NCBI RefSeq assembly: GCF_027579695.1
Contig: NC_083577.1
Coordinates: 64,446,741-64,510,740 of the forward strand
DNA: 64,000 nt
Reading direction: 5' to 3'
From: Neoarius graeffei
Taxonomy: Eukaryota > Chordata > Actinopteri > Siluriformes > Ariidae
In this document: piece after piece, positions 5,302-63,095 of the stretch
How the letters are laid out: every line of letters starts with the position of its first letter
Position numbering within the stretch: the first letter of the stretch is position 1
Translations under genes and position numbers: made by a program
Notes under the pieces: generated by a model
Seen by the model: only the letters and a program-made list of their open reading frames with translations
What the model was told of the DNA's origin: nothing
Database searches by the model: none

Positions 5302-5357
<56 letters not shown>

Positions 5358-6490: not shown

Positions 6491-6896
6491 TTAGAAGTAA
6501 TGTTTAAGTTTCATATATTTCGCATTAAGAATACAAAAGTAAATCTTCCTTCTTTTTTTTGGAAATAAATTTTTCTTTATTTATTATTTTTTCAAAAATA
6601 TCATGGGAAAATCAAATCGTGGACCCAGTATCATGAATTGAATCGAATCATGAATTGGGTGAATCGTTACACGCCTAAGCTGAATACCACTGGCCTGAAA
6701 CTGCTGTTGTAAAACTGTGGGGTATAAAACCGTTGCTCTGCAGACAGATATTGTCCCATCCAGGTTGTATTCCCACCCTACATGCAGTGTTTATCTCCTC
6801 CCCCCTTTTATTTTTGGCTCAGCCTTTGGCTGAAACCTATAGAGGCAGCTGTCTGTATGTGTATGTTTAACCGAGTTCAAGCGTGTTTAAGAATGT
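6491..6896. other. Unassigned interval
   Basis: No gene or well-bounded repeat recognised. Confidence 0.3.
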
Positions 6897-19332: not shown

Positions 19333-19750
19333 GCATTTCCCCCAGGCATGGCTTCCAAACACTAAAATGAAAAACTAATGTGTTATTATTCTGTATTGGT
19401 TTTCAATTAAAACATAATATGAGCTATAGTCAATCAAAACATGCTAAATACCAAATTCTCACGTTTCACTGCATAGAGGCGCTAATAATATCTGATCACA
19501 TTACAAGTAAACACTTGTTGAAAGAGATGAAAAGGTGATTTTTTTTTATGCAAAACACGACCTCTATCACATTTTCTTTTATTCCTACATACTGCAGGGG
19601 AATCCAAGTCCCATACCTGAGAGTTTCCTATTGCTGGGTTTCATGTGACATCACATCTGCCTCATTAGTTATTCAAAACTTTAGCTGGCGGTTTACCAAA
19701 GCTCAGGTGACAAAGCATTTGTACAGAGAAGGTGCATTGCTCGCATGAAA
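17998..19750. other. Unassigned interval
   Basis: First 250 bases look like the second half of the old repeat split by the LTR element. A CA microsatellite is at about 19304-19328. The 19560-19740 segment leads into the THAP remnant and is probably its 5' flank. No other gene seen. Confidence 0.3.
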
Positions 19751-19967: not shown

Positions 19968-20349
19968 GTTTGTATTTCCTTCTCAGCGATGTCCTTAGTG
20001 TTCTCCAAGTACTTTTCTTGCTATGTGTCGTTATTTTACGGTACTTTTTTTTTAGTCACGAAGCACTAAACTCCCCAGCTGTTTCTTTGTTTACTCCTCA
20101 CTCCTCACAAAGTCCATATGCATGAAGGTCGCGACAAAATTCTTCCCCAGCCATACAGTTACAATGCACCGTGATCACTTCTCCATCTTGTTTAACTAAG
20201 ATCCAGGTCTTTAAAGGGGTTTCTGATGATCTTTGTGAATGATTTACCTGACAGATAAGAGCCAACACAAGTGAGAATCAAGCCAACTGTTGTTTGTTTA
20301 CACTTCAACTTGCAGCGCTTCATTGTAAAGATGTAAACGAAAAGCTTAA

Positions 20350-20350
<1 letters not shown>

Positions 20351-20385
<35 letters not shown>
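20351..20385. repeat. (CA)n microsatellite
   Basis: About 17 CA units, then a short TA run. Confidence 0.95.
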
Positions 20386-20391
<6 letters not shown>

Positions 20392-20404
20392 GTATATTTG
20401 AACA

Positions 20405-22421: not shown

Positions 22422-22481
<60 letters not shown>
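22422..22481. repeat. (TA)n microsatellite
   Basis: About 30 TA units linking the Tc1 element to the next TIR element. Confidence 0.95.
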
Positions 22482-22483
<2 letters not shown>

Positions 22484-23933
22484 GTAAAATACCAAATAAT
22501 AGCCCGGGCGATTATTTGTCTCAATCACGTAAGAGACCCGGCGCGTATTAGAGACTAGGCGGCTATTTGGAACAGGCAATTAATTCCTTCTTCACAAATA
22601 CCTTCCCCAAAATCTACCTCAAAACGGGGAAAAAAATCATTCTCAGATAGGCCTACTTTTAACCAGTATAACTTACAGTTTGTTTAGAGTTAGATTACAG
22701 ATAGCACGGTGCCGACTTCGGGGAATTTTGAAGACGCAGAATGCATCTTCGCATGGCACAGTCGGGGTGGATAAAGGATAAATCACACACCTTTTCCTGT
22801 TAATGACTAGTTAAGCGCATGCTTTACAAAATAATCAAGAAACCACACCATTGTCTGTGCGCAGCACTGTGATTTAATTACTCTGCAAAGTTATGGTCAC
22901 TTGCTATCACCCTCACCCATGCAGCCTCCACCCTTTGCGCTTCGCGATGTCTGTCAATCTGAAATTGCATGGAGGGCGCGACGTTGAAGCAACATAATTA
23001 GGGTGCGAAGTGTCAAACCAAAGGGTTTTTTCTTATGCTGAAAAATAAGTGACCTGCAGTGGCTACATACTGTCATCTTGCATCACGTTTCTCTCCAAGA
23101 CGTCTCCCTATTTGGCCGATATGAGCCTATTCCCCGAGTGAGTTGGTACGGTGGCTCGACCCCATAGAAAACTTAAAGTTCGGATGAAAGTTAGTTGAAT
23201 AGGTTACTGACTTGTAGGCCTACATGTTGCCTGCCTGACGCGTGCTTCTGCCCAACTTGCACGACAGATTACTTGTTGAAAAGGCCCCTTGGATTAGATT
23301 GGCCGCGAGCAGACTGAAATGCATGTTAGAACGCTCTCACCTTTTTTGTAAAGCGTCTTCCAGATCCAAATGGGTAAGGGCAAGTGAAATGGTATAAGGT
23401 CTTTAATAAAACTCAGTGTGTGCTTTGATGCATGCATTCGGCAATTTAGGTCGTTTAACAGAAGCAGCAGTCCAACCTTGGAAACCCGCAGTCCTCAATG
23501 TCACCACACACGCTGGCTTTCGTTGGGTATACCCAAAGGGGTGGCTAAGACATCTGTCAAAAGTTACGGAGTTGCATTCCTCAAGAAATATTACGGTAGA
23601 CCAAGATTATAACATTGAAATGGCATGTTTATTATCACGTAACAAAATGTTGTAAACAGTATTATAGAAATAATTTCATTCATTCATTCATTCATTCATT
23701 CATATTGTTTCGGTAGAAAACTATGCAATGCAAAATCGTTTAAACACCAGAAAACCAGAAAAGTGCTGGGCCTCAAGATTCTAGATAGAACGTTCGGATG
23801 CTTTTTTTTTTTTTTTTAGACCCCGGCGAGTATTCGGAACCGGCCTTTATTTGTCACAACACACGCGTACACCCGGCCGTTAAAGGGAACTCGGCGGTTA
23901 ATTGGAACTCGGCTATTATTTGGTATTTTACGG
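22482..23933. mobile_element. TIR element of 1.45 kb in a TA target
   Basis: Ends are near-perfect inverted repeats: CCGTAAAATACCAAATAATAG on the left and its complement at 23910-23933, flanked by TA. Near both ends are related blocks (GGCGATTATTTG, CGGCTATTTGG, CGGCCTTTATTTG, CGGCGGTTAATTGG), which look like subterminal repeats. No transposase is recognisable inside; an (ATTC)n run lies at about 23677-23703. Superfamily not assigned. Confidence 0.75.
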
Positions 23934-23934
23934 T

Positions 23935-23973
<39 letters not shown>

Positions 23974-26945: not shown

Positions 26946-27317
26946 AATTGATTCTATCCACATTCACTGGATATGAGCAATTGCACGCTCTGATTGGCTA
27001 TTCTACTACTAGGTTATCAGCTCCTATACCGTGAGTAGAGGACAAACAAAATGGTGGAACATGTTGCTGAACCGACCGAGAATGAAATAAAAACCCTACT
27101 CGAAAACAAAACTACAAAAAAACCCAACAAAATATGGAATAAAAGTATTTAATGGTAAGGACGTATCTTTTTTTTTCAAGAATTATTACAGCATTTTTCA
27201 CCAATTGTTACTGTCATTTCGATGGTTGGTTTACATTCTAAGCGGAAAATATTTTGTTGGACGTTTTGTATTGTTTTTATTGATCGAATTTGCAAAAAAT
27301 AAAAATGAAAATGCAAT

Positions 27318-27692
27318 CTCATCTCATCTCATTATCTCTAGCCACTTTATCCTGTTCTACAGGGTCGCAGGCAAGCTGGAGCCTATCCCAGCTGACTACA
27401 GGCGAAAGGCGGGGTACACCCTGGACAAGTCGCCAGGTCATCACAGGGCTGACACATAGACACAGACAACTATTCACACTCACATTCACACCTACGGTCA
27501 ATTTAGAGTCACCAGTTAACCTAACCTGCATGTCTTTGGACTGTGGGGGAAACCGGAGCACCCGGAGGAAACCCACGCGGACACGGGGAGAACATGCAAA
27601 CTCCACACAGAAAGGCCCTCGCCGGCCACGCAGCGAACCCAGACCTTCTTGCTGTGAGGTGACAGCGCTAACCACTACACCACCGTGCCACC
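27318..27692 (-). mobile_element. SINE, full length, with target duplication
   Basis: Mermaid-like tRNA-derived SINE, tail CATCTC-type, head ending GGTGGCAC on the reverse strand. A perfect 12-bp duplication TGAAAATGCAAT lies at 27306-27317 and 27693-27704. Confidence 0.92.
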
Positions 27693-27786
27693 TGAAAATG
27701 CAATGTTTTTCTCAAAATCCAGTGAATGTGGATAGAATAAAACGCTAGTTACGAATGTAACTGTGGTTCTATGAATGCCGGATGAC

Positions 27787-27931
27787 CGCCAGAGGCGGCA
27801 CAGCCTGTGGATGATATCCTTCGCGTAGCGCAAGTCGAGACTTATACCAACAAAGAAGTCGTGATGACGTACCTCATGCATAAGAGGCACTGCAGCACAT
27901 CATTCGTCCTCGGAAAACTTCTCGCGGTTGC
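27787..27931. repeat. DIRS terminal inverted repeat, left
   Basis: Complement of 32916-33060. The match is nearly perfect over the outer 125 bp and imperfect in the inner 20 bp. The outermost 40 bases (27744-27786) are unique to this end and are matched only by the internal complementary region. Confidence 0.9.
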
Positions 27932-27951
27932 GATGTCCGAGTGACTGGGAA

Positions 27952-28052
27952 CTCTGGCGGTCATCCGGCATTCATAGAACCACAGTTACATTCGTAACTA
28001 GCGTTCTATTTCATGCCTCCTGACCGCCAGAGGCGGCACAGCCTGTGGATGA
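27952..28052. repeat. DIRS internal complementary region
   Basis: 27952-28002 is the exact reverse complement of the left end 27744-27794 (51 bases). GTT follows at 28003-28005. 28006-28052 is the exact reverse complement of the right end 33033-33079 (47 bases). The two outer ends are thus joined in one place through GTT, the complement of the AAC at both edges, as in the DIRS-1 circle-junction template model. Confidence 0.93.
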
Positions 28053-28084
28053 CTAATACCAGCACTGTCATGAGGACGAGTATG

Positions 28085-29188
28085 TCAATCCATAATTGAA
28101 AGAATGGCAGGCCCAAGGCTTGTAGGTGATGCCACATTTACCCTATAAAACCTGGTGAATGTTGAAGGGCCAGACCATGTTGCTGCTGCACAGATGTCAG
28201 ATAGCGGGGTTCCCCTCAGGGCTGCCCATGAGGTAGCCAAGCTCCTGGTGTTGTGGCACATTACACTGCCCACTGGCAGGGAATCAGCTGACTTGTGTGC
28301 AAGGGAAATCACCTCGCAAACCCAATGTGAGAGGCACTGTTTAGATACAGGCGAGCCAATTGCACCACCTCCATAAGTGACAAACAGTTGGTCTGACCGT
28401 CTCGTGGCTTCAGTCCGGGACACATAGTGCCTCAAGGCTCGCACAGGGCATAGGTCTAGACGGTCCTCATAAGAAGCAAGCTCAATGGATTGGTTAATAA
28501 AGGATGGAGATAGAACCTTCGGCAGAAAGGCTGGGTTTGGCCATAGCGTAACGCCAGATAGATTTGGTCCCCATCTCATACAATCTGGGCTGACTGAGAG
28601 TGCGTGTAACTCACTCACACGTTTTGCCGAGACCATAGCTAAGAGAAAAACGGTCTTCAAGGAAACCCATCTCATGTCCGCTTCAGCCAATGGTTCGAAA
28701 GGGGCCTGGCACAGAGAGTCTAGTACGCGATGCAAATCCCACTGAGGGCTGCGAGGGGCTCTGTAGGGGTGGAGGCGCCTAGCGCCCCTAAGAAAGTTGC
28801 GGATGAGACTATGTGCACCAATAGTCGCACCCTCCACTTTATCATGCCTCGCAGAGATAGCTGCTACATAGACTTTCACGGTAGATGGGGATTTACCCTC
28901 ATCAAGCAGTTTCTGTAGAAACTTGAGCAGTACGGGTATAGGACAACCCGTGGGAGAAACGCTTACGGTCTCACACCACGTCTTGAACAATTTCCAGCGG
29001 TTGTCATACAACGACCTAGTTGAGGGGGCCCTCGCGTTCTCTAAGGTATTAATGACCGCTGGGTCAAACTCTAACAGAGGGTTGTCGGGCCCAAGGGCCA
29101 CACCCACAGCTGGAGACGTTCCGGGCAGGAGTGCCAAACTTTGCCCTCCATCTGAGACAGTAGGTCCCTTCTGAGCGGTAGTTGCCAT
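28085..29188 (-). CDS. DIRS ORF3: tyrosine recombinase
   Basis: Integrates the element by site-specific recombination, replacing the DDE integrase of LTR elements. The chosen start at 29188 (MATTAQKGPT) gives 367 aa and overlaps the end of ORF2 by 118 bp; the frame is open much further upstream, but that part is an off-frame reading of ORF2. An N-terminal SAM-like core-binding region spans about residues 45-140 (STRSLYDNRWKLFKTWC, STVKVYVAAIS). Catalytic residues: R190 in SAKRVSEL, H312 and R315 in CHNTRS, and the nucleophile Y348 in TRFYRVN. No stops or frameshifts. The second catalytic lysine or histidine was not placed. Confidence 0.9.
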   Translation of the reverse strand: MATTAQKGPTVSDGGQSLALLPGTSPAVGVALGPDNPLLEFDPAVINTLENARAPSTRSLYDNRWKLFKTWCETVSVSPTGCPIPVLLKFLQKLLDEGKSPSTVKVYVAAISARHDKVEGATIGAHSLIRNFLRGARRLHPYRAPRSPQWDLHRVLDSLCQAPFEPLAEADMRWVSLKTVFLLAMVSAKRVSELHALSVSPDCMRWGPNLSGVTLWPNPAFLPKVLSPSFINQSIELASYEDRLDLCPVRALRHYVSRTEATRRSDQLFVTYGGGAIGSPVSKQCLSHWVCEVISLAHKSADSLPVGSVMCHNTRSLATSWAALRGTPLSDICAAATWSGPSTFTRFYRVNVASPTSLGPAILSIMD

Positions 29189-31080
29189 GGAGTTCCGGTC
29201 AGCAGGGAATGAAGCACAGCAAACCACGGTCTTGCTGGCCATCGCGGAGCCACCAGCAGAACACGGTGACAGCACTGGCGTATCCGAAGTAGCACTTCCA
29301 GAAGGAGGGGAATCGGTGGAAAGGCATACAGCAGTTCGTCCGGCCACTCGTGTGCCATGGCGTCCAAGCCCAGTGCTTCGTCCTCCTGCGTGCGAGAGAA
29401 CCACTTTTGGCAGTGTGTGGACTCTTTGCTGGCAAACAGGTCCACCGCTGCTGTACCAAAGCGATCCCAAACCTGCTGTACCACCTGTGGGCTCAGGCGC
29501 CACTCCCCCGGGTCGAGGCGTTGTCTCGACAGGGAGTCTGCCACCGCATTCAGTTTCCCTGGCAAGTGGACTGCCCTGAGGGATGCCAGCCTGGGGAAGG
29601 CCCACTTCAGTAGAGATTGAGTTAAGCGAAAAGCAGTGGGGGATCGTGTTCCCCCCTGGTGGTTGATGTTGTACACCGTCGTCACATTGTCTGATCTGAC
29701 AAGTACGTGGCGCCCCTGTAGGTATGGCATAAGGTGTTTTAGAGCCAGGTGTACTGCTCTGATTTCGAGGAGATTGACGTGTTCGCCCATCTCTTCTTTG
29801 CTCCACAACCCACTGACTGCTCTGTGTTGCCATACTGCACCCCACCCTGTAAGAGAGGCGTCTGTAGTCACAATCTCCCTGTGTGTGGGTGCTGCACCAA
29901 GCGGAACACCTGATGTTAAAAAGGTCTCCTTCCGCCATGGGCTGAGGGCAGACATGCAATGTTCTGTGATAAGAACGGGTGTCTTCCTGTGACGGGTCAC
30001 GTCGAGGCCGAGGCCAATCAGCCATATTTGCAGAGGCCGGAGTTCCAGTAGACCCAAGGGGAGGATCTGGGCTGCTGCTGTGAGCATACCCTGGAGCCGC
30101 AGTAGTATTCTGAAACGTAGTCTTCGTCCCACCCGTACTTGTGACAGTAGTGAAGTGATGTTCGCTACACGCCGGCTGGTCAAGGACGCGGACATTGTCT
30201 GTGAGTCTAGGATCATGCCAATGAATTGAGCCGATTGGCTCGGGATAAGTGTGCTCTTTTCTAAATTGATTGTCAGTCCCAGTTCTGAGACATGGCTCTG
30301 CAGTGTTGCTATATCTGCTAGGCTGCGTTCCCTCGTCGGGGAACAGACTAACCAGTCGTCCAGGTATGGTAGAATCCTCATACCTGACTCCATGAGGGGG
30401 GACAGTACTGCCTGTATGCATCTCGAGAAGACTCTGGGTGACAGAGCGAGGCCGAACGGGAGTACCCTGAATTGGAACAGACGGCCCTGGAAGGCAAAGC
30501 GGAGGAACCGACGATGTGCTGGTGCCACCGGGATATGAAAGTAGGCGTCTTTCAAATCCAGGGTAGTAAACCATTCCGCTGGGGAGATTACCTTCAGAAC
30601 GTCTGCTGTGTGCAGCATCTTGAATGGCATTTTCTTTAGGTACTTGTTTAAGCCCCGGAGGTCTAGAATTGGGCGGAAACCGCCGTCTTTTTTTGGAACG
30701 ACAAAATAAACTGAGCAGAAGCCGTTGAAAGTAGGAGAACACTCTACTTCCTCTATGGCCCCTTTCTGCAGAAGAACGGTTATCTCCGACTGGAGAACCA
30801 GAGATCTTATTGAACTTTTTACAATTGTGGGCCTGAGACGGGCCTCTGGAGGGGGCCGACGTCTGAACTGCAGTCTGTAACCCTCTGACACTGTTTTTAG
30901 AACCCATGGGTCGCGAACGATTCTGGCCCATGCGGCCAGTTGAGTCTCTGTGTACAGTCCAACCGTCGGCCCGGGGCCTTCAGCGGGGAGTGCGATTGGG
31001 CTTCGCTCCACTGTTAGTGGGGGTGGAGCGGGGCATGGGATATGCCTGGCGGCGAAAGGGTGCAGAGCCCCTGGGGGCAT
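29071..31080 (-). CDS. DIRS ORF2: RT, RNase H, methyltransferase-like
   Basis: 669 aa, intact. RT domain about residues 95-330: VYFVVPKKDGGFRPILDLRGLN, TLDLKDAYFHI, VLPFGLALSPRVF and the catalytic YLDD at 239-242. RNase H about 400-500: TTDASLTGWGAV (D407), the acidic residue in LLEIRAVHLAL (about 439), and SDN (about 464) followed by HQGGTRS. After this comes a region (AVDLFASKESTHCQKWFS, then LLYAFPPIPLL and LLVAPRWPARPWF) matching the DAM-methyltransferase-like domain carried by DIRS elements. ORF1 overlaps its start by 101 bp and ORF3 overlaps its end. The annotated ATG is the first in frame; the true start may be internal or made by recoding. Confidence 0.92.
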   Translation of the reverse strand: MPPGALHPFAARHIPCPAPPPLTVERSPIALPAEGPGPTVGLYTETQLAAWARIVRDPWVLKTVSEGYRLQFRRRPPPEARLRPTIVKSSIRSLVLQSEITVLLQKGAIEEVECSPTFNGFCSVYFVVPKKDGGFRPILDLRGLNKYLKKMPFKMLHTADVLKVISPAEWFTTLDLKDAYFHIPVAPAHRRFLRFAFQGRLFQFRVLPFGLALSPRVFSRCIQAVLSPLMESGMRILPYLDDWLVCSPTRERSLADIATLQSHVSELGLTINLEKSTLIPSQSAQFIGMILDSQTMSASLTSRRVANITSLLSQVRVGRRLRFRILLRLQGMLTAAAQILPLGLLELRPLQIWLIGLGLDVTRHRKTPVLITEHCMSALSPWRKETFLTSGVPLGAAPTHREIVTTDASLTGWGAVWQHRAVSGLWSKEEMGEHVNLLEIRAVHLALKHLMPYLQGRHVLVRSDNVTTVYNINHQGGTRSPTAFRLTQSLLKWAFPRLASLRAVHLPGKLNAVADSLSRQRLDPGEWRLSPQVVQQVWDRFGTAAVDLFASKESTHCQKWFSRTQEDEALGLDAMAHEWPDELLYAFPPIPLLLEVLLRIRQCCHRVLLVAPRWPARPWFAVLHSLLTGTPWQLPLRRDLLSQMEGKVWHSCPERLQLWVWPLGPTTLC

Positions 31081-32581
31081 GTCTGTTCTCCCTTTGCCGT
31101 TGAGGTGCCGCGCGCTGGGGGGATGAGAATTCCCGCCGTGGTGCTGGGGGCTGCGGTGCTCGGAAGCGAGTCACCTGTGATAAGCCCACCTGCTGTTTCC
31201 GTGTTTCTGAAACTAGGGCGCGGCGTTCCAGAGCGTCCTTAGCGGCTAGCCCGAACAGTTGGCCAGGTATGAGGGGCAGCTCCCGTAGGGTGGCTCTGCA
31301 CGCGTCTGGGAGTGGCGTTTGCGAAAGCCAGACCTGGCGGCGAGCGCGCACTAATACCGCCATCAGACGCCCTAACTCCTGGGTCATGAAGCCCACGCCC
31401 TGTAGGGTGGCTTCAATCGCCTCACGTACAGCCGGATCTGAGTCTGCCTTCAGCAGGGAAGACTGCGCGGCCAGAAGAAGGTGAGAAATCGTATTGTCGA
31501 TCCTTCCGATGCGCGCCGCATGATTGTAGGCTCGAACAAGATCATCGTCTGTGCGCCTACAGGCCTTGCTTGGACAGCGTACCTGGGGACGTACTGCCTC
31601 GTCTGGGGAGACCACCAGAGACGCCACACAGGGATCCACCGCTGGCATTGTATCCAATCCAAACAGGCCTGCATCAGCCATGTTACTCATAGCGCGTGCC
31701 ACAGAGGTGGGGTGGGAACGTGCAGCTGCAGTTTTAAACGCCGTCTGGAACTCGTCCACAAAGGCGTCACATTTTGGGATGATGGAGGAGGCGTCCACCG
31801 AGGGCTGCCTGAAGTAGGCGCTCACACCAGCGTTAGATTGCAGCGGCTGTAGCCCACGTTGTACTAGCGCCGCAGTAATTGTGGCCAGCAAGGATTGGGG
31901 GCCGAGAGTCCCGCCATCCCCATTTTTGTCGGAAAAAACGCTGGAGGGGGCATCGTCAGAGGAAATGCCCGAGCGAGGAGAGCCAGGCAGCTCAAAGGAA
32001 TCGTCTTCCACTGGATTAAAGAGAGAGTCAGTGGCGGCAGTGGAGAGTGTATCGTCCTCCACGTCTGGCTCCTCTCGGGTAGGCAGGGTGGGAGCAGTAG
32101 CCAGGGTACCACCTGCTGGTGGTATGGTCTGCATGTTTGCCTGAGGGGGTTGGAGCTGAAGCAGTAACGTCTCTATTCGGCTTACAGCCGAGGAGAGATC
32201 GTCTACCCGTTTGTTGAGCAAAGAAGTGGAGTGCGATTTCGCCTTCTTCTTGGCTGGCTGCGCAGCCTGAAGGCCTGTGCTGCCGCGTTTTACGGCTTTG
32301 TGGGCACCTGCGGCAATATGCTCGGTTGTCGAGAGCAGCGCGTCACTTTTGGCCAATAACTCGGTAAGTCTGGCCTCTCTTACCGTGAGCGGTAGGACGG
32401 CACAGCTTGGGCAAGGGTTCGTCAAAGCTGAGCGAAGGTGAGCGGTGCCTAGACAAGACGGGCATTCTAAATGACCGTCCTCAGATGCAAGTGGTGCAAA
32501 GCACGTTTTGCATGTGAGGGAAAGGACATCCATCATAGCGCAACTAACGCAAACCCGAACTAACACACGACGCAATAACAA
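30980..32581 (-). CDS. DIRS ORF1: gag-like protein
   Basis: 533 aa, intact. The N-terminal part carries a compact cysteine cluster (CKTCFAPL, CPSCLG, CPSC at about residues 24-60), which suggests zinc binding. A K-rich segment (PAKKKAKS) and a predicted coiled stretch (VDDLSSAVSRIETLLLQL) follow, then acidic and serine-rich sequence. A central helical block (LLAAQSSLLKADSDPAVREAIEATLQGVG) leads to an R/P-rich C-terminus (PQRQRENRHAPRGSAPFRRQ) suited to nucleic-acid binding. Two adjacent Met codons at about 32529-32534 (MMDVLS) are alternative starts. Function as a structural nucleocapsid protein is inferred from its place in the element. Confidence 0.8.
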   Translation of the reverse strand: MLLRRVLVRVCVSCAMMDVLSLTCKTCFAPLASEDGHLECPSCLGTAHLRSALTNPCPSCAVLPLTVREARLTELLAKSDALLSTTEHIAAGAHKAVKRGSTGLQAAQPAKKKAKSHSTSLLNKRVDDLSSAVSRIETLLLQLQPPQANMQTIPPAGGTLATAPTLPTREEPDVEDDTLSTAATDSLFNPVEDDSFELPGSPRSGISSDDAPSSVFSDKNGDGGTLGPQSLLATITAALVQRGLQPLQSNAGVSAYFRQPSVDASSIIPKCDAFVDEFQTAFKTAAARSHPTSVARAMSNMADAGLFGLDTMPAVDPCVASLVVSPDEAVRPQVRCPSKACRRTDDDLVRAYNHAARIGRIDNTISHLLLAAQSSLLKADSDPAVREAIEATLQGVGFMTQELGRLMAVLVRARRQVWLSQTPLPDACRATLRELPLIPGQLFGLAAKDALERRALVSETRKQQVGLSQVTRFRAPQPPAPRREFSSPQRAAPQRQRENRHAPRGSAPFRRQAYPMPRSTPTNSGAKPNRTPR

Positions 32582-32649
32582 TAATGTAGATCAAACACAA
32601 TGCTAATACGAGTGACAGGGCTAACGAGTTGGCTAGCTAGCTAGTCAGT

Positions 32650-32875
32650 CACGGGGAGAGCCACCGTGCTAACTAGGGAATACACCACACTTGTCAACAA
32701 AACGGGGAAAACCACCGCGGGGATGTGAGTGTGTGTGTGCGGGGGTGAACACGGGGTGAACCGCCGTGCACTTCCGATCACGGGAAGAGCCTCCGTGAGC
32801 TTACCTTTCTTGTTCCTTTCCTTCTTTTTTTTTTTTTTTTTAGAATATAAATTCGTTCACGGGGGAACCGCCGTA
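32650..32875 (-). repeat. Five CACGG...CCGTG motifs in the DIRS leader
   Basis: Five 18-19 bp units of the form CACGGGR-RAR-CCNCCGTG begin at 32650, 32701, 32750, 32779 and 32858. The arms can pair, so each unit could fold as a small hairpin. They lie between the ORF1 start and the terminal repeat. The second (32701-32719) and fifth units are imperfect. Confidence 0.8.
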
Positions 32876-32915
32876 CAGGATTCCGGTAATCCGGTAATTA
32901 ACTTGGGATGCTCGA

Positions 32916-33060
32916 ATCAAGCGCGAGAAGAATAAGAGGACGAATGACGTGCTGCAGTGCCTCTTATGCATGAGGTACGTCATCACGACTTCTTTGTTGG
33001 TATAAGTCTCGACTTGCGCTACGCGAAGGATATCATCCACAGGCTGTGCCGCCTCTGGCG
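32916..33060. repeat. DIRS terminal inverted repeat, right
   Basis: Partner of 27787-27931. Its outer extension to 33079 is unique to this end and is mirrored only in the internal complementary region. Confidence 0.9.
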
Positions 33061-33155
33061 GTCAGGAGGCATGAAATAGAACAGTTATTCCACTAAATCT
33101 ATGCATCTCATTGGCTATCGGCTCATGTACAACTCCATTTTGTGGAATAACTGTT

Positions 33156-33647: not shown

Positions 33648-34593
33648 CAGTACTGTGCAAAAGTCTTAGGCACATGATAAGAAATCTCATCTCATCATCT
33701 CTAGCCGCTTTATCCTTCTACAGGGTCGCAGGCAAGCTGGAGCCTATCCCAGCTGACTACGGGCGAAAGGCGGGGTACACCCTGGACAAGTCGCCAGGTC
33801 ATCACAGGGCTGACACATAGACACAGACAACCATTCACACTCACATTCACACCTACAGTCAATTTAGAGTCACCAGTTAACCTAACCTGCATGTCTTTGG
33901 ACTGTGGGGGAAACCGGAGCACCCGGAGGAAACCCACGCGGACACGGGGAGAACATGCAAACTCCACACAGAAAGGCCCTCGCCAGCCCCAGGGCTCGAA
34001 CCCAGGACCTTCTTGCTGTGAGGCAACAGCGCTAACCACTACACCACTGTGCCGCCCATGATAAGAAATGCTTTTGACCAAAAATGGCTTCAAAATAATG
34101 AAATGTTTCAACATAAAAAAATAATATTAATAATCCTAGAACCAGCAGTAAGCCATAATAAGTGAAACAAATTCAGTATTTGGTGTGAGACGACCCTTTG
34201 CTTTAAAAAAAAAAAAACAATACCGGTAGCTGTCCCAGGTACAATGAGTGCAGTTTTATGCGGAAATGAGCTGTAGGTTTTACTGAGCATCTTCCAGAAC
34301 CAGCCACAGTTCTTCTGGACACTTTGACTGTCACACTCGCTTCTTCATTTTGCAGCAAAACCCAGTAGCCTTCAGTATGTTTTCTTTTTTAATCTGAAAA
34401 GTGCTCTCTTATGTAATATGCTGCTCAGATACATTTTTTTTCCTGTAACATTTAATTTTGTGCTGGAAAACGAACGTTTGGAACTCTGAAATGTTTTTGT
34501 ACCGACTCGATAATGTAGAAGTCATAAAATAGAAATCTATAACAAAGTTTGTATGAAAAAAAAAACAGGGAGCCTCAGACTTTTGCACAGTAT
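33648..34593. mobile_element. Tc1-like TIR remnant holding a SINE
   Basis: Inverted ends ACAGTACTGTGCAAAAGTCT at about 33648 and its complement (AGACTTTTGCACAGTATT) at about 34575-34593. No transposase ORF. A SINE splits it at 33686-34056. Confidence 0.75.
33686..34056 (-). mobile_element. SINE, full length, with target duplication
   Basis: Same family as 27318-27692. Perfect 13-bp duplication CATGATAAGAAAT at 33673-33685 and 34057-34069. The B box is intact (GGGTTCGAGCCC read on the - strand). Confidence 0.93.

Positions 34594-37705: not shown

Positions 37706-37707
<2 letters not shown>

Positions 37708-37771
<64 letters not shown>
37708..37771. repeat. (AT)n microsatellite
   Basis: About 32 AT units abutting the left end of Tc1 copy B. 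Confidence 0.95.

Positions 37772-37778
<7 letters not shown>

Positions 37779-39858: not shown

Positions 39859-39864
<6 letters not shown>

Positions 39865-39903
<39 letters not shown>
39865..39903. repeat. (TA)n microsatellite
   Basis: About 19 TA units after Tc1 copy B. Confidence 0.95.
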
Positions 39904-62167: not shown

Positions 62168-62375
62168 ACAGCCCTCTTGAATTCTTGATTCTGATTGGTC
62201 GGAAGGCATTGACTAATTTTCTATAACAGTAGCTATTACAGTAGTTCCGGCTGCAAGTTAAATCGCAGGCTCATTCTAATACAGTTCATTGATGCACCTT
62301 TATTTACATAAGATGTACTGCTATAATCCATCTGTAACAGCGTAGACATTATCAGTAGTTATATCATAACTGCCT
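62168..62375. repeat. Short AT-rich dispersed repeat (MITE-like)
   Basis: CCCTCTTGAATTCTTGATTCTGATTGG, a stretch familiar from fish genomes, runs into TTCATTGATGCACCTTT. Ends not defined. Confidence 0.4.
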
Positions 62376-62378
62376 TTA

Positions 62379-63095
62379 TTCTATCCACATTCACTGGATA
62401 TCACCAATCGCACACTCTGATTAGCTACTCTACTACTAGGATATCAGCTCATATACCGTGAGTAGAGAAAAACAAAACGGCAAAGCTTGTTGCTGAACCA
62501 ACCGAGGACGAAATAAAAACTCTACTCGAAAACAAAATCCTTAAAAATACAAAAATGCAACACAAGTATTTGATGGTAAGAACATATCTTTATTTTTCAA
62601 GAATTATTATTAATAATCGCATTTTTCACAAATTGCTCCCGTCATTTCAACGGTTTGTTTACATTCATCTTTCAGCATTAAAACTTGTTGAATTTTTTTT
62701 TAGACTGGTTCAAAAGCTCAAAGAAGTTTGAAAATTACATAACTGAAATGTCCAAGGAAGAATTAAATAAATGTCTAAAGCTAGTATATACCTCGGCATG
62801 ACAGCGAGACGGCACTTTCTATAAATGAACCAACACGAAAGTCAATTCGTGCAGCCACTGATAGGTTTTTAAGAAGTCTGCAGAAGTGATTTTGTCGGAC
62901 GGTTTGTATAAGTTTTTATTTATCGAATTTGCAAAAAAAAAAAAAAATGCTCCGTTTCTCAAAATCCAGTGAATGTGGATAAAATAAAACAGTTATTCCA
63001 CTCAATCTGGTCATACATGGCTTATAGCCAACTTGGCGCTATGCACCTCGTTGGCTATCAGCTCATGTATGACTTGATTTCGTGGAATAACTGTT
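62379..63095 (+). mobile_element. Uninterrupted copy of the repeat that hosts DIRS
   Basis: Starts TTCTATCCACATTCACT and ends GTGGAATAACTGTT. An exon-like start (about 62495, EPTEDEIKTLLENK) precedes an intron-like gap and a second ORF (about 62703-62885) reading DWFKSSKKFENYITEMSKEE and, after frame breaks, KSIRAATDRFLRS. The second resembles the core-binding part of fish Crypton/KIAA1958-like proteins. Stops (62802, 62826) show decay. Position 62988-62990 is the AAC where the other copy carries the DIRS element. Confidence 0.5.

Follow-up and report, generated by a model that had tools for sequence, protein, structure and literature searches.

The described systems closest to the element considered here are the retrotransposons GaDIRS1 of the stickleback and DIRS-1 of Dictyostelium. 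In the published passages that set out their anatomy, GaDIRS1 measures 5322 bp (PMC3266345 Table 3), and DIRS-1 combines inverted terminal repeats (ITRs) and an internal complementary region (ICR) with frames for GAG, for reverse transcriptase, RNase H and methylase, and for a tyrosine recombinase (PMC3266345, PMC5633606). A passage of PMC5941688 describes the mechanisms proposed for DIRS integration as remaining to be experimentally demonstrated. We compare these systems with an element of 5342 bp in a stretch of 64,000 nucleotides from Neoarius graeffei (NC_083577.1, positions 64,446,741 to 64,510,740), the whole of which is called the window below. This element has the layout of DIRS-1 and, going by the published anatomy of GaDIRS1, shares with the latter its GTT/GTT termini, an AAC circular junction, a long overlap of open reading frames (ORFs) and a single terminal extension (rE), and its ICR is also like the ICR pair 46-56 of that element (PMC3266345). 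It departs from DIRS-1 in its choice of target, as DIRS-1 is described in part of the literature as inserting into copies of itself with no evident preference for particular sequences, whereas the families of the window element show a clear preference for AAAAC-N5-TTTT.

In the copies read, the left junction holds the central bases of the element and the right junction those of the host. The account that we favor, with a probability of roughly 55%, is that a target-specific recombinase would break the host DNA at AAAA^C (the caret marks the break) and exchange a single strand of complementary DNA (cDNA), with a palindrome at the end of the element as its putative binding site.

Boundaries and Copies of the Element

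By its anatomy, the segment 27744-33082 on the minus strand is a young, structurally complete DIRS1-like retrotransposon and, as an element, an ordinary one (Table 1). It shows three reading-frame types, ITRs with one extension, an ICR complementary to both ends, and no target site duplication. Ngaro and PAT elements carry split direct repeats instead of ITRs and an ICR. Identity with Ngaro or PAT was ruled out by the ITRs and the ICR, plus a weakly detected Dam-like region; Ngaro is described without a methylase in a passage of PMC3266345.

At the left junction GGATAGAATAAAAC runs into GCTAG (between 27743 and 27744), and at the right junction AATAGAAC runs into AGTTATTCCACTAAATC (between 33082 and 33083). 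An empty paralogue of the insertion site joins GGATAAAATAAAAC directly to AGTTATTCCACTCAATC between 62990 and 62991, and BLAST aligns the two host repeats on both sides of the site, 27708-27743 with 62955-62990 at 97% and 33099-33155 with 63039-63095 at 86%. The sole block common to both immediate edges of the element is AAC, within a broader likeness in which the host word AATAAAAC agrees with the element end AATAGAAC at 7 of 8 bases. The ends are also fixed independently of the empty site. When the final 50 bases of the right end are joined to the initial 51 bases of the left end, the ICR is a perfect reverse complement of the joined sequence (101/101, with zero mismatches in the window copy), and both methods give the same bases. 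An initial annotation of the window had proposed a near-intact DIRS element with precise boundaries, three open frames with catalytic residues, and no duplication beyond a shared AAC, all of which is borne out here and below. It had also singled out the exact empty site in the same window. That site does give the boundary bases, but it is not special, because the intact site of the host repeat occurs at 19,574 places in the genome (with at most 3 mismatches); it belongs to a paralogous member of a highly repeated sequence and is not an allele.

The host genome assembly (2.34 Gb in 38 contigs) was searched with a 501-base probe from the ICR and recombinase end. This probe found 16 copies at 99-100% identity, that of the window included; a further 8 were 83-84% identical, and others stood near 70%. 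The counts are lower bounds, with 40 of 432 candidates scored. A pattern for the left end found the same 24 copies, each with an ICR about 223 bases off, plus four weaker places. These 24 copies with the same ends, 83-100% identical to the internal probe, are called families A and B. The 16 close copies, aligned over 2.26 kb, show a mean difference of 0.6% (0.1-1.2%), and 12 of them have an uninterrupted recombinase frame of 618 or more codons within the sequence fetched. Because the close copies are near identical, their frames are mostly open and the ends of the window copy match its ICR perfectly, the family was active in the recent past. The left-end and ICR motif of a further family, C, occurs at 824 places, which corresponds to roughly 400 copies.

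Some individual insertions were recorded separately. One copy (L012/L031) apparently lies inside a tandem minisatellite, with the words ACCTACATGACAGT on both flanks. The places C4:53475826 and C12:67452697 share an identical right-end-like word and flank, which may reflect either a duplicated insertion or a repeat that carries a DIRS end.

The Target Motif

As read from the base counts of the flanks, the targets of these elements take the form AAAA-CNNNNN-TTTT, in which six bases (C and the five that follow it) separate two inverted half-sites. Six bases is a common overlap for tyrosine recombinases. Numbering positions from each junction, the left flanks of 74 copies (24 from families A and B, and 50 from family C among 100 matches listed, with unique strings counted) have A at -5, -4, -3, and -2 in 82, 91, 99, and 85% of cases, and at -1 they carry C (84%) or T (15%). 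At AAC sites in the window, taken as a control, A reaches 32% at -5 and 38% at -4. The T at -1 is expected from CpG decay, because it stands before G and is also present in ICRs. On the right side, 73 rows from families C and D (79 minus six that lie in the host repeat) have T at 55% over +6 to +9, the highest of 13 offsets, compared with about 28% after AAAAC in the window. The tendency to T is weaker in the 22 right flanks of families A and B, at 48% over +5 to +8 and 44% over +6 to +9. The joined ends of the element mimic the layout of the target in all three families compared, and read TAGAA-CGCTAG-TTACG in the window family, TAGAA-CGATGG-TTACG in family C, and TAGAA-CGAGGG-TTATG in a third family.

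These counts carry some known biases. One left-end pattern demands a base other than G at -4, and edge letters bias -9 and -15 on the left and +1 and +17 on the right; in family C flanks taken from a pattern free of the -4 constraint, G stands at -4 in 2 of 50. The reversed form of the right-end pattern, used as a control, matched 4 places versus 269. The 79 right flanks, whose status as DIRS ends was verified for part of the rows, exclude C2:58514679 for its non-C at -1. ICR rows were removed before counting: 34 in the family C scan with five free bases described below, by their AGAAC start and not each confirmed by pairing, together with C1:13436199 (an odd ICR row) and C6:29599649 (from the left ends).

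The triplet AAC is the commonest target, found in 61 of 89 left flanks. Among the same-end left flanks of families A and B it accounts for 18 of 24, with other triplets in the remaining 6, so that the AAC at the edges of the window copy is probably not a strict requirement. A second repeat was entered at least two times at one site (C7:18585214 and C8:24142312), with ATC on the left and AAC on the right. By the counts of its joined flanks, the usual target in this repeat reads AAAATC followed by TGATGTTTT: the ATC form occurs at 6,527 places when up to 3 mismatches are allowed and matches exactly in at least 100, and the AAC form, searched as a control, has 5 exact matches. The exact-match listings of this site and of the host-repeat site are sorted by mismatches and carry no consensus. 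Identity over the 3-bp junction is apparently not needed, because the left junctions in the ATC repeat keep ATC while the right ones read AAC. The host word AGTTA beside the junction had been considered as a relevant feature and was dropped, as it is covered by the wider target motif. A third repeat was apparently also entered twice at one site (C2:56899738 and C5:63984315), with GAGAAGCTATAAAAC/T on the left and TGACYTTCCTTTGAGCA on the right.

Junction Polarity and the Probable Position of the Break

In families A and B the central bases of the element are kept at the left junction in 24 of 24 copies, with one change in L019, and all 22 of the right junctions found run into host DNA (the right ends of L074 and L077 were not found in the sequence fetched). 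When the five bases after C are left free in family C, the best 100 of 103 matches keep the bases of the element with at most 2 changes, and 66 of these listed rows were counted as left ends. Of 14 copies of family C, four (L090, L095, L100, and L102) showed no right end in the sequence fetched. The reversed arrangement was defined as the five central bases of the element followed by anything but its own continuation, which would be an ICR. It was met at no right end among the best 100 of 119 matches, the best 100 of 269, and 92 of 92. A right end in the target form TAAAAC, in place of TAGAAC, has 0 exact occurrences among 119 places; C4:15645608, the one listed row that combines TAAAAC with another mismatch, was rejected as a chance match with no DIRS sequence upstream.

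The position of the break can be narrowed by the bases next to the junctions. At the left, -2 follows the host and is not A in 12 of 89 flanks. At the right, -2 is the A of the element in 22 of 22 copies of families A and B, a set not selected on this position, and also in the listed right-end rows found by patterns, where the patterns demand A. At -1, 88 of 89 left flanks have C or T, and on the right this position is T, A, or G in a few copies, L014 included. The left end was found for 4 of nine copies with a non-C at the right -1 (L104, L108, L110, and L111). In L014, L108, and L111, both sides are readable and different, with C or T on the left and another base on the right, and because of these copies we tentatively place the break between -2 and -1, at 5'-AAAA^C on the plus strand of the window. 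Positions -2 and -3 are probably outside the exchanged bases; the polarity of the triplet therefore weighs less, and it is the central bases that carry the argument.

The Palindrome in the Terminal Extension

Within an ungapped core of 137 bases (27775-27911), the two ITRs differ at three positions close to the outer edge and at one position deeper inside. The extension outside them contains a palindrome that reads AGTTAC-GAAT-GTAACT in the window family, GGTTAC-GTAT-GTAACC in family C, and GGTTAT-GTAT-ATAACC in the third family, and it covaries among the three, with 2 of 6 pairs altered on both sides. Folded alone, it scores z values of -5.7, -2.7, and -2.7 in the three families, a stability equaled by 1, 4, and 3 of 200 shuffled sequences; the joined ends score -5.5, -5.6, and -4.7. 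Folding of the joined ends is partly expected because the terminal repeats are inverted, an explanation that does not extend to the palindrome of the extension itself.

A Proposed One-Strand Exchange and Its Alternatives

In the proposed mechanism, the ICR would supply the joined-ends sequence ...TAGAA-CGCTAG-TTACG..., and the tyrosine recombinase would act on AAAA-CNNNNN-TTTT targets by breaking a strand at 5'-AAAA^C. Only one strand would be exchanged, namely that with the sense of the first-strand cDNA (the plus strand of the window). The cDNA strand running from C-GCTAG to TAGAA would be spliced into the nick at AAAA^C in single-stranded form, with its complement made later by replication, and the palindrome of the extension may be a folded or palindromic binding site. 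Exchange of one strand is favored because the junctions are one-sided, the center of the target need not match, and the palindrome covaries. When integron cassettes integrate, a single strand is exchanged at 5'-AA^C within a site that is single-stranded and folded, and replication finishes the process. An integron-like route for the window element, to which we give somewhat less than even odds, would have one first-strand cDNA strand, folded as a hairpin at the joined ends, joined to the AAAA^CNNNNNTTTT strand before replication completes the insertion. The likeness is one of mechanism and no homology is claimed; integrons are bacterial, and their cassettes are not reverse transcribed. The observations consistent with it are the one-sided junctions and the covarying palindrome alone.

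The strongest competitor, which we consider less likely, is a double-stranded circle that recombines with the genome at an identical 3 bp (AAC) by ordinary symmetric tyrosine-recombinase exchange. Such a model is stated for DIRS1-like elements in a passage of PMC3266345, circular molecules are reported from Dictyostelium in part of PMC5633606, and AAC is indeed the commonest target triplet. However, targets other than AAC are used and their host bases persist at the left junction, the target motif exceeds 3 bp, and symmetric double-strand exchange followed by replication predicts both junction arrangements, half of them reversed, whereas no reversed junction is present among the matches listed. 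Recombinase-type integration, as proposed in the initial annotation, is broadly supported, although across many copies the junctions agree more closely with exchange of one strand than with the symmetric exchange that is usually depicted. A second possibility is that symmetric double-strand exchange does occur and that mismatch repair or replication always restores one version. The same final junction sequences would result, but by reasoning a strict bias is unexpected after a completed exchange, which leaves no strand-marking nick, and no exception was seen in 24 left ends of families A and B plus the 66 counted in family C among the matches listed; we regard this possibility as improbable. 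Insertion into A-rich DNA by target priming or end joining, without use of the recombinase, for which the A-run at the left flank might speak, is highly improbable given that the window copy has neither duplication nor tail, the ICR is retained at each of 24 left ends, the position of the break is constant to one or two bases across the copies read, and an opposed T-run stands at a fixed distance.

Several points weigh against the one-strand account. Strand-biased mismatch repair could mimic the polarity. The six-base spacer is derived from base preferences, and much of the junction hairpin is expected from the complementarity of the ITRs. A break at AA^C, and not one base to the right, depends on three informative copies; L104, with T on both sides, is uninformative, and L013, whose left -1 is G, is hard to accommodate and could be an insertion. 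At C14:24501609 the right junction has the sequence CATGG-TTTCC and resembles the center of family C at 4 of 5 bases, where about 1 such case is expected by chance in 79. Finally, circular intermediates have been verified in a Dictyostelium agnA deletion strain, as described in part of PMC5633606.

Reading Frames and Surrounding Repeats

The coordinates of the element, its parts, and the interrupted host repeat are collected in Table 1.

Table 1. Features of the DIRS1-like element and its insertion site (window coordinates).
Feature	Position	Strand	Evidence
DIRS1-like retrotransposon	27744..33082 (27741 if the AAC common with the host is counted)	-	Empty-site comparison and ICR, same ends
Terminal extension (rE) outside the inverted repeat	27744..27765	+	ITR alignment begins at 27766
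Palindrome inside rE	27747..27762	.	Covariation in three families; folds with z -5.7
Left ITR	27766..27930	+	ITR alignment
Right ITR	32918..33082	-	ITR alignment
ICR	27952..28052	-	Reverse complement of 33033-33082 joined to 27744-27794
Putative target half-site AAAAC	27739..27743	+	Flank base counts in other copies
Putative opposite, weaker half-site	33088..33091	+	TTTT in average target, TTCC at window copy
ORF1, GAG-like	30980..32536	-	Open frame; CxxC..CxxC zinc motif at 32512-32453
ORF2: reverse transcriptase, RNase H, Dam-like methylase	29071..31170	-	YLDD at 30366-30355; profile matches
Tyrosine recombinase part of ORF3	28085..29188	-	R in KRVSEL, HNTR, Y in FTRFYR
Left part of interrupted host repeat	26948..27314	+	82-86% to parts of 62375-62951
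Right part of interrupted host repeat	33083..33155	+	Empty-site comparison, BLAST
Paralogous empty host-repeat copy	62375..63095	+	Site between 62990 and 62991

ORF1 is 518 aa long counted from its first Met and matched no Pfam family at E<=0.01. ORF2 spans 699 aa from stop to stop, with strong Pfam support for the reverse transcriptase (2e-29), fair support for RNase H (2.4e-6), and weak scores for the Dam-like methylase (0.01 in Pfam and 0.0016 for a phage methylase in NCBIfam). The ORF3 frame is 964 aa long, is open back to 30979, and overlaps most of ORF2; the recombinase occupies its final ~370 aa, with a fair match to a PHROG integrase (1.5e-6) and a score of 0.15, under the cut-off, for Pfam Phage_integrase. 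The motifs YLDD, TDAS, KRVSEL, HNTR, and FTRFYR, present in ORF2 and ORF3, are those that we take to be catalytic. At 29188, close to a likely start for the recombinase frame, the window copy has Met where all 15 of the remaining close copies have Val, and this Met was dropped as the start of ORF3 for this reason. A single-sequence structure model of the recombinase alone was unusable, with a mean predicted local distance difference test (pLDDT) of 36.5, and a search of PDB sequences returned no recombinase. Searches of public viral contigs turned up no relatives of ORF2, of the recombinase, or of an ITR word, and those of public prokaryote contigs turned up no relatives of ORF2.

Short inverted repeats lie close to the ends of the host repeat (26948-26972, 27717-27741, 33083-33155, and 62375-63095), which also forms a hairpin at its terminus, AACAGTTATTCCAC...GTGGAATAACTGTT; it may be a Helentron-like non-autonomous element. 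Its site was entered by 6 of the 79 right flanks of families C and D, by L098 and L110, and by the window copy, and two bases are absent at the right junction of L110. As a special hot spot the repeat was rejected: with 19,574 sites available, 6 of 79 flanks is a few-fold over an expectation that is itself a rough estimate from 272 AAAAC words on both strands of the window, and no more. A second dispersed repeat of the window flanks the DIRS element at 27319-27700 (nested in the host repeat) and 33684-34060, with 99% identity over 273 nt. Simple-repeat tracts with words of the right flank lie at 5304-5357, 20347-20394, 22424-22482, 23933-23973, 37707-37778, and 39859-39903.

Implications for DIRS Integration

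In the portion of the open-access PubMed Central (PMC) literature covered, no report of this target motif or junction polarity was identified. A 2020 paper by Malicki et al., reportedly titled on single-stranded cDNA, may already report part of these findings. The entry of DIRS elements into DNA has so far been argued largely from anatomy. What the window element adds, beyond being an ordinary member of its group, is a means of testing a long-standing question of mechanism through its target motif and one-sided junctions, together with the covarying palindrome. The choice between a double-stranded circle and single-stranded cDNA could be answered with routine genome data plus a simple in vitro assay on the AAAACNNNNNTTTT duplex, and the target motif, taken with the junction features, would predict where DIRS elements can insert.

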